From contig JAGWTH010000001.1 of NCBI GenBank assembly GCA_028868995.1, positions 124,001 to 188,000 on the forward strand: DNA of 64,000 nt, given 5' to 3'. Shown piece after piece: positions 14,038 to 18,437 of this stretch (its first letter is position 1; the number at the start of each line of letters is the position of its first letter). Origin of the DNA: Burkholderiales bacterium (GTDB lineage: Bacteria; Pseudomonadota; Gammaproteobacteria; Burkholderiales; Burkholderiaceae_C). The notes under the pieces are model-generated. The model worked only from the letters and a program-made list of their open reading frames with translations, was not told the origin of the DNA and made no database searches. The position numbers and the translations under genes are program-made.

Positions 14038-14802
14038 TCAGCGGTCGGCGGGGCGCACGCTCACCTCGGAACTGCCGATGGCGTGCAGGCCGGCCGCAGT
14101 ATGCACCAGCAGGCTGCCGTCCTCGCCGACCCCATGGGCGGTGCCGGCCGTGCCGTCGCTGAGCGTCACGGCGCGGTCCCGCAGGGCGTCCCGGGCGTCG
14201 AATCGGGCATGGAAGGGCGCGAAGCCGGATTGGGCGAAACCCAGCACGTCGCGCACCAGGGCCGGGACGACGCGCAGCAGCGCCGCGGAGGCGTCGATGT
14301 CCGGCAGCAGCTCGCGCAGGGCCGCCGGCGGCGTGGACAGGCCCTCGGCCGGACGCGGCGCGATGTTGATCCCTACCCCGATCACGGCCTGCCGGACGCC
14401 CGGGCCGCCCGCCCCGAAGCTGGCGGTCTCGATCAGGATCCCGGCCAGCTTGCGGTCGTCCAGCCACAGGTCGTTGGGCCACTTCAGGCGCACGCGCGGG
14501 TGGAGGCTCTCGGCGAGGCTGACGCCCACGGCCAGCGACAGGCCCGACCAGTCGGCCGGCGCCAGCGCCAGGCCCAGCGAAAAGGTGAGCGAATCGCCCG
14601 GGGCGCTGTGCCAGGCCCGCCCCAGGCGGCCGCGGCCCGCGGTCTGGCGCTCGACCACCAGCAGCACGGGCTCGGTACGGCCGGCGCGCGCCCGGCGCAT
14701 CAGTTCGCTGTTGCTGGAGTCGACCTCCGGCAGGACCTCCACGGTGAAGCCGGGCAGCAGCGGCGCCACCGCCTCCCACACCGCCTCGGCCTGCCAACGC
14801 AT
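14038..14802 (-). CDS. birA: Biotin--[acetyl-CoA-carboxylase] ligase
   Basis: 254 residues. The catalytic BPL/LplA-like domain shows 'EVDSSNSELMRRA', the biotin/ATP loop 'ERQTAGRGRLGRAW' and 'LKWPNDLWLDDRKLAGILIE', then the small C-terminal SH3-like domain. It adenylates biotin and transfers it to the biotin carboxyl carrier protein. The N-terminal winged helix of E. coli BirA is absent, so this is a monofunctional ligase rather than a repressor. It starts 4 bases after the end of the SET gene on the same strand. Confidence 0.92.
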   Translation of the reverse strand: MRWQAEAVWEAVAPLLPGFTVEVLPEVDSSNSELMRRARAGRTEPVLLVVERQTAGRGRLGRAWHSAPGDSLTFSLGLALAPADWSGLSLAVGVSLAESLHPRVRLKWPNDLWLDDRKLAGILIETASFGAGGPGVRQAVIGVGINIAPRPAEGLSTPPAALRELLPDIDASAALLRVVPALVRDVLGFAQSGFAPFHARFDARDALRDRAVTLSDGTAGTAHGVGEDGSLLVHTAAGLHAIGSSEVSVRPADR

Positions 14803-14806
14803 GGGC

Positions 14807-15361
14807 CTACCGGCGGCGCTTGGGCGCGAGCAGGGTGCCGCGGCAGTTCCTGCTGCCGCACCAGCAGGGATATTCGGCCTTGAGCTTCTTCGTGTACGGC
14901 TCGTCGATGATCAGGCCGTAGTCGTAGTTCAACTCCTCGCCGGCCTGGATGTTGCGCAGCGCCTTGATGAACACCCGGCCCCCCTCCTCGTCGGCCTCGC
15001 AGTTCGGGTCGCAGGAGTGGTTGATCCAGCGCGCCGCGTTGCCGCCCACGGCCGCGTCGATCACGCGGCCGTCGTCGACGTGGAAGTAGAAGGTGTGGTT
15101 GGGATCGTCCGGGTTCCAAGGATGGCGGCGCTGGGCCTCCTTCCAGGTGATGATCTCGCCCACATATTCGATGATCTGCTCGCCCTCGGGGATGTCCTGC
15201 AGCGCGAACACGCCCTTGCCGTGGACGCCGGACTTGCGGACCTGGATCCGGCGGCCGCCGGAGGCCTTGGCCGGGGCCTTCTTCACCTTGGGGGCCGCGT
15301 GGGCGGACGGGGAGCGCTTGGGGGAGGCGGCGCGGGTCTTCGCCTGGGGCTTGGCGGGCAT
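14807..15361 (-). CDS. SET-domain protein-lysine methyltransferase-like protein
   Basis: 184 residues. Residues 1-36 are Lys/Ala/Pro-rich and basic. The SET domain follows: 'RKSGVHGKGVFALQDI' (SAM-binding G-x-G), 'RWINHSCDPNCEA' with NHSC at 114-117 (pseudoknot), 'GEELNYDYG' with the catalytic Tyr, and a post-SET zinc motif C166-x-C168-x4-C173 near the C-terminus. All hallmark residues of an active methyltransferase are present; no pre-SET domain is seen. The ATG is preceded by no clear ribosome binding site. It is divergent from topB across 127 bases. The substrate is unknown; the basic Lys-rich linker of the neighbouring TopB is a candidate. Confidence 0.88.
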   Translation of the reverse strand: MPAKPQAKTRAASPKRSPSAHAAPKVKKAPAKASGGRRIQVRKSGVHGKGVFALQDIPEGEQIIEYVGEIITWKEAQRRHPWNPDDPNHTFYFHVDDGRVIDAAVGGNAARWINHSCDPNCEADEEGGRVFIKALRNIQAGEELNYDYGLIIDEPYTKKLKAEYPCWCGSRNCRGTLLAPKRRR

Positions 15362-15387
15362 GAAATGAAATCGTGTTAACTTGGGTT

Positions 15388-15425
15388 CGTACACGTGCGC
15401 GCATGCGCGTGCGCGTACGCGCGCG
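15388..15425. other. 38-bp alternating purine-pyrimidine (Z-DNA-prone) tract
   Basis: Between the divergent SET and topB genes, 38 consecutive bases alternate pyrimidine and purine without a break, mostly CG/GC and CA/TG steps (for example GTGCGCGCATGCGCGTGCGC). Such a tract flips to left-handed Z-DNA under negative supercoiling. It lies 63 bases before the topB start and 27 bases before the SET start, so it could make either promoter sensitive to supercoiling. The alternation is directly visible; the Z-DNA behaviour and any regulatory effect are inferred. Confidence 0.7.
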
Positions 15426-15488
15426 AGGAAAGCGCAGATTGTAAGAACATCGCAGGAGGCGCGGCCGCAAGGCAGGCGCTGGTGGTCC

Positions 15489-18437
15489 GTGACAAAGACA
15501 TTGGTTATTGCCGAGAAGCCCTCCGTGGCCCAGGACATCGTCCGGGCCCTCACGCCCGTGGCCGGCAAGTTCGACAAGCACGACGAGTACTTCGAGAACG
15601 AGCGCTACGTCGTGACCAGCGCCGTCGGCCACCTGGTCGAGATCCACGCGCCGGAACAGTTCGACGTGAAGCGGGGCAAGTGGAGCTTCGCCCACCTGCC
15701 GGTGATCCCGCCCTTCTTCGACCTGAAGCCGGTGGACAAGACCAAGTCGCGCCTGAACGCGGTGGTCAAGCTGGCCAGGCGCAAGGACGTGACCGACCTC
15801 GTGAACGCCTGTGACGCGGGGCGCGAGGGCGAACTGATCTTCCGCCTGATCGAGCAGTACGCCTTCGGCAGCGACGGCCTGGGCGGCGGCAAGAAGGCGG
15901 GCGCGGCCAAGCCGGTCAAGCGCCTGTGGCTGCAGTCGATGACGCCGCAGGCCATCCGCGAAGGATTCGAGAAGCTGCGCACCGACCGACAGATGGAAGG
16001 CCTGGCGCACGCGGCCCGCTCCCGCTCGGAGGCCGACTGGCTGGTGGGCATCAACGGCACGCGGGCCATGACTGCCTTCAACTCGCGCGACGGGGGCTTC
16101 TTCCTGACCACCGTGGGCCGGGTGCAGACGCCCACGCTGGCCATCGTGGTGGAGCGCGAGGAGCAGATCCGCAAGTTCGTCAGCCGCGACTACTGGGAGA
16201 TCCACGCAAGCTTCCTGGCCGAAGCCGGCGCCTATCCCGGCAAGTGGTTCGACCCGAACTTCAAGAAGGACGCCGAAGATGCCGAGAAGAAGGCCGAACG
16301 CCTGTGGAGCGAGCGCGAGGCAATCGCCATCGCCGATGCGGTGCGCGGCAAGTCCGCCACCGTCAGCGAGGAGTCCAAGCCCAGCACCCAGGCCTCGCCC
16401 GGCCTGTTCGACCTGACCTCGTTGCAGCGCGAGGCCAACGGCCGCTTCGGCTATTCGGCCAAGACCACGCTGGCGCTGGCGCAGTCGCTGTACGAGCGGC
16501 ACAAGGCGCTGACCTATCCCCGGACCGACTCGCGCCACCTGCCCTCCGACTACGTCAAGGTGGTGCACGAGACCATGGGCATGCTCGCGGGCAGCGGCCT
16601 GCCGCACCTGGCGCCGTTCGCGCGGCAGGCGCTGGACGGGAACTACGTCAAGCCGATCAAGAAGGTGTTCGACGACAGCAAGGTGTCGGACCACTTCGCC
16701 ATCATCCCGACCCTGCAGGCGCCCAGCGGCCTGTCGGATGCGGAGCAAAAACTCTACGACCTGGTGGTGCGCCGCTTCCTGGCGGTGTTCTTCCCGAGCG
16801 CCGAGTACCTGGTCACCACCCGGATCACGAAGGCGGTGGGCCACCACTTCAAGACCGAGGGCAAGGTGCTGGTCAAGCCGGGCTGGCTGGCGATCTACGG
16901 CAAGGAGGCCGCCGACCAGGAGGAGGGCCGGGAAGGCGAGAAGGGCCAGAACCTGGTGCCGGTGCAGCCGGGCGAGATGGTGCGGACTGAAAGCGCGGAG
17001 GCCAGGGGGCTGAAGACCCGGCCGCCGGCGCGCTACAGCGAAGCCACCCTGCTGGGCGCGATGGAAGGCGCCGGCAAGTTCGTCGAGGACGACGAGCTGC
17101 GCGAGGCGATGGCCGAGAAGGGCCTGGGCACGCCGGCCACCCGCGCGGCCATCATCGAGGGCCTGATCAACGAGAAATACATGCTGCGCGAGGGCCGCGA
17201 GCTGATCCCCACGGCCAAGGCCTTCCAGCTGATGACGCTGCTGCGCGGCCTGGGCGTGGAGGAGCTGAGCAAGCCGGAACTCACCGGCGAGTGGGAGTAC
17301 AAGCTCGCGCAGATGGAGCACGGCAAGCTCTCGCGCGAGCGGTTCATGCACGAGATCGCCGACATGACGAAACGCATCGTCATGAAGGCCAAGGAGTACG
17401 ACCGCGACACCGTCCCGGGCGACTACGCGACGCTGAAGACGCCCTGCCCCAACTGCGGCGGTGTGGTGCAGGAGTCCTACCGCCGCTACAACTGCGTCGG
17501 GAAGAAGGGCCAGCCGCCCTGCGGCTTCTCCTTCACCAAGATCCCCGCCGGCCGGCCCTTCGAGCTGGAGGAGGTCGAGACCTTCCTGCGCGACAAGCGC
17601 GTCGGCCCGCTGCAGGGCTTCCGCTCCAAGGCGGGCTGGCCCTTCACGGCCGAACTGGCGCTGGTGTTCGACGAGGAGGAGAAGAACTGGAAGCTCGAGT
17701 TCGACTTCGGCGAGGAGAAGAACCCGGCCGAGACCGGCGAGATCGTGGACTTCTCGGCGCAGGAGCCGCTGGGGCCCTGCCCCAAGTGCGGCCACAGGGT
17801 GTTCGAGTGGGGCAGCAACTACCTCTGCGAGCGCTCGGTCCCCACCCAGGACCATCCCGCGCCCACCTGCGACTTCCGCAGCGGCAAGATCATCCTGCAG
17901 CAGCCGGTGGAGCGCGAGCAGATGGCCAAGCTGCTGGCGACCGGCAAGACCGATCTGCTGGACAAGTTCGTGTCCATGCGCACCCGCCGCTCCTTCAAGG
18001 CCTTCCTGGCCTGGGATGCGGAAGCGGGCAAGGTGAACTTCGAGTTCGAGCCGCGCGCCTCCAAGTTCCCGCCGCGCAAGACGGCGGCCAAGGAGCCGGC
18101 GGCGGCGTACAAGGCGGGCGCGAAGGCCGCCGCGAAGAAGGCCGCGCCGGCGGCGAAGGAGGCGCCGGCGAAGAAGGCGGCCGCCAAGGCGCCGCGCAAG
18201 GCCGCCGCCGGACTGAAGCCCAGCCCGGATCTCGCCGCCGTGATCGGCACCGAACCGGTGGCACGTACCGAAGTGATCAAGAAGCTGTGGGACTACATCA
18301 AGGCCCACGGCCTGCAGGACGCCAAGGACAAGCGAGCGATCAACGCCGATGCGAAGTTGCAGCCGGTGTTCGGCAAGGCACAGGTGAGCATGTTCGAGCT
18401 GGCCGGCATCGTCGGCAAGCACCTGTCGGCGCCCTAG
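15489..18437 (+). CDS. topB: DNA topoisomerase III with histone-H1-like linker and C-terminal SWIB domain
   Basis: 982 residues from a GTG start (MTKTLVIAEKPSVAQ); no earlier ATG/GTG fits the homology. Order: toprim domain (Glu9, 'ACDAGREGELIFR' around 107-119), type IA core with catalytic Tyr343 in 'ALTYPRTDSRH', then zinc-ribbon-like segments ('CPNCGG', 'CPKCGHRVFEWG'). After about residue 857 comes a ~50-residue Lys/Ala/Pro repeat like bacterial histone-H1-type tails ('KAGAKAAAKKAAPAAKEAPA'), then a ~75-residue SWIB/MDM2-like domain ('TEVIKKLWDYIKAHGLQD', 'MFELAGIVGKHL'). The core relaxes or decatenates DNA by single-strand passage. SWIB fusions to type IA topoisomerases are known from Chlamydia TopA; the role of SWIB here is unknown. 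Confidence 0.95.
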   Translation: MTKTLVIAEKPSVAQDIVRALTPVAGKFDKHDEYFENERYVVTSAVGHLVEIHAPEQFDVKRGKWSFAHLPVIPPFFDLKPVDKTKSRLNAVVKLARRKDVTDLVNACDAGREGELIFRLIEQYAFGSDGLGGGKKAGAAKPVKRLWLQSMTPQAIREGFEKLRTDRQMEGLAHAARSRSEADWLVGINGTRAMTAFNSRDGGFFLTTVGRVQTPTLAIVVEREEQIRKFVSRDYWEIHASFLAEAGAYPGKWFDPNFKKDAEDAEKKAERLWSEREAIAIADAVRGKSATVSEESKPSTQASPGLFDLTSLQREANGRFGYSAKTTLALAQSLYERHKALTYPRTDSRHLPSDYVKVVHETMGMLAGSGLPHLAPFARQALDGNYVKPIKKVFDDSKVSDHFAIIPTLQAPSGLSDAEQKLYDLVVRRFLAVFFPSAEYLVTTRITKAVGHHFKTEGKVLVKPGWLAIYGKEAADQEEGREGEKGQNLVPVQPGEMVRTESAEARGLKTRPPARYSEATLLGAMEGAGKFVEDDELREAMAEKGLGTPATRAAIIEGLINEKYMLREGRELIPTAKAFQLMTLLRGLGVEELSKPELTGEWEYKLAQMEHGKLSRERFMHEIADMTKRIVMKAKEYDRDTVPGDYATLKTPCPNCGGVVQESYRRYNCVGKKGQPPCGFSFTKIPAGRPFELEEVETFLRDKRVGPLQGFRSKAGWPFTAELALVFDEEEKNWKLEFDFGEEKNPAETGEIVDFSAQEPLGPCPKCGHRVFEWGSNYLCERSVPTQDHPAPTCDFRSGKIILQQPVEREQMAKLLATGKTDLLDKFVSMRTRRSFKAFLAWDAEAGKVNFEFEPRASKFPPRKTAAKEPAAAYKAGAKAAAKKAAPAAKEAPAKKAAAKAPRKAAAGLKPSPDLAAVIGTEPVARTEVIKKLWDYIKAHGLQDAKDKRAINADAKLQPVFGKAQVSMFELAGIVGKHLSAP

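Follow-up and report, generated by a model that had tools for sequence, protein, structure and literature searches.

A gene for a SET-domain protein and topB, which encodes a DNA topoisomerase III with a C-terminal SWIB domain, are read away from each other in a 64,000-nucleotide stretch of a Burkholderiales genome (GenBank assembly GCA_028868995.1, contig JAGWTH010000001.1, positions 124,001 to 188,000; referred to here as the window), and the gap of 127 base pairs (bp) that they share (15362-15488) holds a perfectly alternating pyrimidine-purine tract. In the window's family SET and topB form a fixed divergent unit, with topB on one side and SET-birA on the other. What is new here is this fixed pair together with a tract, conserved in its alternation, in the shared gap. 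The reading favoured here, to which a probability of about 0.4 is given, is that the tract is a Z-DNA-prone, supercoiling-responsive element for both topB and SET-birA. The principal features are as follows.

15388-15425, no strand assigned: perfect alternating pyrimidine-purine tract, Z-DNA-prone, 38 bp, from a run scan of the window and genome.
14807..15361, minus strand: SET-domain lysine-methyltransferase-like protein, 184 amino acids, ATG start, identified by Pfam, structure match and residue conservation.
15489..18437, plus strand: topB, DNA topoisomerase III with a C-terminal Lys/Ala tail and SWIB, 982 amino acids, GTG start, NCBIfam PRK14724.
14038..14802, minus strand: birA-like biotin protein ligase, 254 amino acids, Pfam BPL_LplA_LipB 6.7e-16, following SET after a gap of 4 nucleotides.

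Judged from its named relatives, the window's family is Comamonadaceae-like, the nearest of these relatives being Ramlibacter, and the window itself probably comes from Ramlibacter or a close neighbour. SET matches were present in 234 of 250 species sampled from the family, and in 77 of 300 genomes sampled across the order, the family included. The arrangement of the pair was read in 80 family genomes from 78 genera, using the best SET rows of each genome among the matches listed and leaving the second TopB-like matches G350 C21 and G358 C2 out of the pair counts. TopB was found in 77 of these genomes, 70 of which carry both genes and seven of which have TopB without SET. Wherever both genes lie on one contig they are neighbours and divergent (68/68 genomes, with 27-747 bp between alignment ends); SET and topB fall on separate contigs in G343 and G363. 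The first-pass annotation, made from the letters of the window, had described the divergence across the shared gap and had set co-occurrence of the pair in relatives as a check beforehand, and both hold in the family. Among named relatives, which include Ramlibacter, Limnohabitans, Rhodoferax, Curvibacter, Hylemonella, Polaromonas and Caenimonas among others, and which were represented by the best 80 of 548 relatives (a set overlapping with the 80-genome sample), the divergent arrangement was seen in 77 of 80 loci, the remaining three ending just upstream of SET. In 79 of these 80 loci SET has a birA homologue downstream on its own strand, within 150 bp in 56 of them, and SET is probably the first gene of a SET-birA operon. 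Adjacent divergent SET and topB genes were not seen outside the family in the order-wide sample. In one genus of another family (f6), SET is adjacent to topB in convergent orientation in four genomes, and otherwise SET lies about 1.5-17 kb from topB in several genomes outside the window's family, or far from it. A birA match was present in four of six SET-less loci searched (L131-L134), where the coordinates put birA directly divergent from topB.

The alternating tract, which is the most unusual feature of the shared intergenic region and was absent from the first-pass annotation, was found through out-of-frame readings upstream of SET. It is the sole alternating run of at least 23 bp in the 3.76-Mb genome; contig C37 carries one further run, of exactly 22 bp, and the next longest within the window is 17 bp. 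For comparison between genomes, each alternating step was scored +1 and each break -4, with a threshold of 18. This score was reached in 60 of 80 SET-topB gaps in the family (18 of the 80 genomes lying outside the even sample and coming mostly from best-hit lists), and a perfect run of at least 20 bp was present in 50 of them. Taking one genome per genus in the even sample, 44 of 60 genera reached the threshold, as did 53 of the 77 gaps at named loci and 57 of 87 fixed 300-bp upstream regions of topB in the family, a scoring that omitted loci with no topB start, G384 among them. None of 33 topB upstream regions from outside the family did so (maximum 10), nor did any of 1806 control windows of 300 bp from the same family loci (maximum 16), these windows overlapping and coming partly from the same genomes. 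The longest alternating run in 21 outside-family SET loci was 17 bp. Across the 80 family genomes, one anchored pattern listed 103 distinct runs of at least 22 bp in 52 genomes, and the 900 bp upstream of topB contain 37 of these, from 37 genomes; the second TopB-like matches G350 C21 and G358 C2, and the G353 fragment on C109, were left out of this listing. Alternation is also kept before topB in three of six SET-less genomes (G322, 21 bp; G429, 19+19 bp; G370, 17 bp with a score of 16), so that the tract can persist with topB in the absence of SET.

The manner in which the tract changes between relatives suggests that it is kept by selection on alternation and not on letters. Segments between two short boxes that bracket the tract were compared irrespective of alternation in 59 box-anchored pairs, drawing on 122 unique box-anchored gaps of 157, with one pair (L224/L225) visibly misanchored. 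Transitions outnumbered transversions in the tract segment (244:129), against ratios of 190:330 and 128:282 in the flanks, and even-length to odd-length insertions and deletions stood at 125:106, against 38:141 and 51:173 (Fisher p <2e-11). Mean right-anchored pairwise identity of the tracts was 0.58, the letters drifting while the alternation stays. A dinucleotide microsatellite, produced by slippage and CpG transitions and either neutral or serving as length-variable tuning with no Z-DNA role, would account for the much greater share of even-length indels in the tract segment and for aligned pairs that often differ by 2-bp units. Slippage alone, however, leaves the low share of transversions unexplained, and such an origin does not explain why tracts in 44 of 60 genera fall at the same site and none in the 1806 control windows, making it an unlikely account of the whole. 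Two other candidates were considered. The tract is no more foldable than alternation-preserving shuffles of itself (mean z 0.06 and -0.23, n=54) and its palindromy likewise matches such shuffles, and an RNA hairpin was rejected on these grounds. A coding role as part of SET is disfavoured by the 2-bp gaps common in the alignments and by the position of the tract, which in the window precedes the start of SET.

The two boxes resemble promoter elements, and both motifs were defined after the sequences had been viewed.

15374..15382, plus strand: left box TGTTAACTT, extended -10-like (TG-n-TAnnnT) and directed toward topB, with a putative promoter role.
15438..15443, minus strand: right box ATTGTA (TACAAT on the minus strand), -10-like and directed toward SET, with a similarly putative role.

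A TAnnnT box toward topB is present in 60 of the 67 tract-bearing gaps of the family, where 8.3 would be expected from shuffles, and TG stands just upstream of it in 57. Of the 80 family gaps, 74 contain ATTGTA, where letter shuffles predict 1.74; it lies within 25 nucleotides of the tract in 59 of the 67 tract-bearing gaps, and at 6-12 nucleotides in 56 of these. We infer that the boxes may be facing -10 elements, with both transcripts starting across the tract. Energies for the transition from B- to Z-DNA were taken from Table 1 in the available portion of PMC3024258, and twist and stiffness constants were general-knowledge values. On this basis the predicted onset of the transition in the 38-bp tract is at a superhelical density (sigma) of about -0.037, and no lower value was found in the window. 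In the mechanism favoured here, rising negative torsion would flip the tract from B- to Z-DNA in the cell, absorbing roughly 6-8 helical turns, and the flip would alter firing or escape at the two facing promoters that bracket it. Expression of topoisomerase III, which relaxes torsion, and of SET-birA would thereby be tied to torsion. The SET protein, in turn, may methylate the cell's own H1-like Lys/Ala tails, namely those of a stand-alone H1-SWIB protein and of TopB, and perhaps its own. A wider version, in which a left-handed-DNA switch common to topB and SET in most genera of the family links relaxation and the modification of H1/SWIB proteins to supercoiling in a chromatin feedback loop, is more tentative and should be regarded as doubtful at present.

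Several results weigh against a torsion-responsive role for the tract. A 16-bp run elsewhere in the window has a predicted onset of -0.038, near that of the tract, and a low onset is not unique, although arithmetic indicates that the 38-bp tract takes up far more turns. Twenty of the 80 family gaps fall below the threshold score of 18, 12 of them below 14, and the SET-less genomes G324, G336 and G387 have no tract before topB. Of the 103 listed long runs, 66 lie elsewhere than at topB, and since the anchored pattern misses one boundary class of runs, by estimate about a quarter, topB is not claimed as the sole site of such tracts in other genomes. The substitution test depends on alignment, with flanks partly saturated and pairs drawn from related genomes, and slippage with CpG transitions could lie behind part of the substitution pattern. 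A strict scan of the window gap for the sigma-70 consensus found no promoter. Literature on purine-pyrimidine (RY) patterns falls on both sides: the available text of PMC4060949 reports them as under-represented in prokaryotes, beta-proteobacteria included, when the null model is realistic, which is in favour of the proposed role, and an earlier count cited there, with a simpler null, had placed them in surplus in beta-proteobacteria, which is against it.

The strand bias of the tract is a further point against a torsion-responsive role. On the topB strand 81% of purines are G, versus 66% on the SET strand (49 versus 10 genomes), and symmetric Z-DNA does not predict such a bias, which favours, or adds, a transcription-linked effect, the left flank being biased in the same direction. 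The main mechanistic rival to a torsion sensor is a transcription-pause array in the probable initially transcribed region of topB, which would delay promoter escape and set the output of topB (and SET). The elemental pause pattern has G at -10, a pyrimidine at -1 and G at +1, and alternating pyrimidine-G repeats would present it at every second base. The bias of purines to G, and of TG over CA, on the topB strand fits such an array, as does the left box reading toward topB immediately before the tract. However, a like excess of G and T is seen in the left flank, so that the bias may be regional, alternation is kept even with A in place of G, and strict alternation over 20-47 bp exceeds what pausing needs. 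On balance an array of pauses appears rather improbable as the function of the tract.

Some of the longer gaps contain additional sequence. In G345 a thioredoxin-like open reading frame (ORF; AhpC-TSA/Redoxin, Pfam AhpC-TSA 2.1e-12) lies between the tract and topB (L071:4413-4949). A similar stretch of 550-570 bp is found in five more gaps (G301, G353, G393, G424 and G426), the tract staying on the SET side, and these five probably also hold a thioredoxin-like ORF. G403 seems to retain a remnant, and the long gaps of G330 and G347 have no tract. Elsewhere in many family genomes there is a second recurrent alternating run of 22 bp with near-identical letters (G302 C1:4661518 and G317 C1:177827, for example), which is probably conserved coding DNA and which we presume may lie in cysS.

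A torsion-responsive Z-DNA element of this kind would have known parallels. Supercoiling-sensitive topoisomerase promoters and Z-DNA-forming promoter elements are both known, and torsion-linked control of a topoisomerase is what the former share with the proposed role of the tract. Compared with known Z-DNA promoter elements, the tract in the window is natural, conserved in its alternation and placed between the topoisomerase gene and a methyltransferase gene. To our knowledge, hardly any conserved Z-DNA element that occurs naturally in bacteria has been documented with a clear function, and a tract that drifts in its letters, keeps its alternation and stands beside a topoisomerase gene makes it simple to test directly whether cells gauge torsion by means of left-handed DNA. 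If the favoured reading is correct, the pair would share a built-in torsion sensor in a mostly environmental bacterial family. No description of Z-DNA at a bacterial topoisomerase promoter was found in the titles and abstract openings that made up the literature searched.

The SET protein gives a Pfam SET match of 7.1e-27 over residues 48-149 of its 184 amino acids, and its best solved-structure match is the SET domain of KMT2A/MLL1 (1.4e-28). Residues N114, H115, Y148, C166, C168 and C173 are invariant across 105 distinct relatives, and position 146 is Tyr in 96 and Phe in nine; start codons in this alignment were picked by a heuristic, and one incomplete sequence was left out. We take NHS and ELxYDY to be the catalytic SET motifs and CxC...C to be the post-SET motif. 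The protein is, at the domain level and as judged from its sequence, a member of the SET protein lysine methyltransferases with catalytic and post-SET residues intact, in agreement with the first-pass annotation, which had reported an intact domain with post-SET cysteines. It resembles the SET and post-SET regions of eukaryotic KMT2/MLL proteins but is a stand-alone bacterial protein, and a genome-wide search found a single SET match in the window's genome. A Lys/Ala-rich tail is present at its own N-terminus; in many species the relatives carry a Lys-rich tail at the N- or C-terminus, which suggests DNA binding or self-modification. In the portion of PMC3980110 available, cpnSET is described as having methylated Hc1, Go1-SET as having been tested with MC1-alpha, and NUE as not having methylated Hc1. 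Like the SET protein as proposed here, these bacterial and archaeal enzymes, cpnSET and Go1-SET, are SET proteins with H1-like or nucleoid substrates, although they belong to other lineages and the SET protein of the window is fixed in divergence with topB. It is probably a bacterial protein-lysine methyltransferase acting on the cell's own H1-like tails; action on Lys-rich nucleoid proteins of the cell is plausible by analogy, and the fixed pairing suggests that it works on the bacterium's own chromatin.

The product of topB comprises Toprim, a topoisomerase core, Toprim_Crpt repeats and SWIB, and its C-terminal part is as follows.

18075..18212, plus strand: H1-like Lys/Ala/Pro-rich tail of TopB, starting at about residue 863.
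18213..18425, plus strand: SWIB domain of TopB, residues 909-979, whole-protein E-value 6.2e-26.

Both the Lys/Ala/Pro tail and the C-terminal SWIB had been recognised in the first-pass annotation, which knew of no described bacterial system of this form. The TopB-SWIB fusion is an already curated family (NF011313/PRK14724), matched over TopB residues 2-980 on model positions 2-988 with 1917 bits against a cut-off of 1088; window TopB is alike over its whole length, including the SWIB end, no difference in the protein was seen, and the novelty of the window lies in the control region and the fixed SET partner. No description of a topB-SWIB/SET pair in these bacteria, or of such a pair with an alternation-conserved tract, was found in the literature searched (titles and abstract openings, with subscription journals largely uncovered). 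A TopA-SWIB fusion (PRK06319) is known from Chlamydia and is likewise a type IA topoisomerase with a C-terminal SWI domain, but it is a topoisomerase I, whereas TopB is a topoisomerase III and falls below the threshold of that family (178 bits against 868). Two SWIB matches were found in the window's genome, in TopB and in a stand-alone ORF of 159 amino acids (G000 contig C20, L166:4693-5172; SWIB 6.7e-27). The latter carries a long AKKAPAKKAAAKK-type H1-like tail of AKK repeats and a sub-threshold match to the histone-H1-like HC2 (34.5 bits against a cut-off of 40), and the C-terminal end of TopB looks like a fused copy of it.

The interpretation in the first-pass annotation finds partial support. 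It had been proposed there that the SET enzyme may methylate the TopB tail, and such methylation would offer a reason for the pairing. The pair is conserved and the SET domain intact, and each of the 27 tails fetched from TopBs that have SET alongside and no SWIB holds 2-21 Lys (the SET match being partial in one genome). These tails were read directly because local alignments stopped in the low-complexity region. However, SWIB is present on at least 41 of 77 family TopBs, and SET stays beside topB in these 27 genomes where it is absent; none of the TopBs of 33 outside-family genomes with tails read, of 55 with TopB, carries SWIB. Five of seven SET-less family genomes keep at least seven Lys in the TopB tail, one of them (G324) with SWIB as well, while G322 has no Lys and G387 one Lys in an interrupted frame. 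The three tails fetched from TopBs adjoining SET in the f6 genus hold 1, 0 and 0 Lys, and in other families kilobases often separate SET from topB, or the two lie far apart. Tail and SWIB thus track SET poorly, which counts against the view that the genes are paired because SET methylates the TopB tail, even though these tails may still be methylated. The proposal is unsupported and seems quite unlikely to explain the adjacency. As an H1 mimic the stand-alone H1-SWIB protein matches or exceeds the TopB tail, and it is an equally good candidate substrate.

The review PMC3980110, in the portion available, discusses bacterial SET proteins chiefly in the role of secreted effectors. An injected effector acting on host histones, in the manner of LegAS4/AnkI and with only incidental adjacency to topB, would be consistent with a weak match of the protein to the SET portion of the NCBIfam AnkI/LegAS4 model and with LegAS4-like effectors reported, in the same source, in Burkholderia and Bordetella. 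That match is nevertheless far from the cut-off (44 bits against 550), SET is widespread in a family in which many of the SET-bearing species are environmental by name, and birA follows SET directly in the window and downstream in almost all named loci, all of which render an effector role highly improbable. Away from topB, one or two extra and more distant SET matches (about 31-38% identity) occur in several family genomes, such as G306 and G326. In G316 the match adjacent to topB covers only residues 8-127 (C1:2638183-2638545) and a second, covering residues 56-182, lies far off (C1:511806-512186), which may reflect a split gene, a paralogue or an assembly error.

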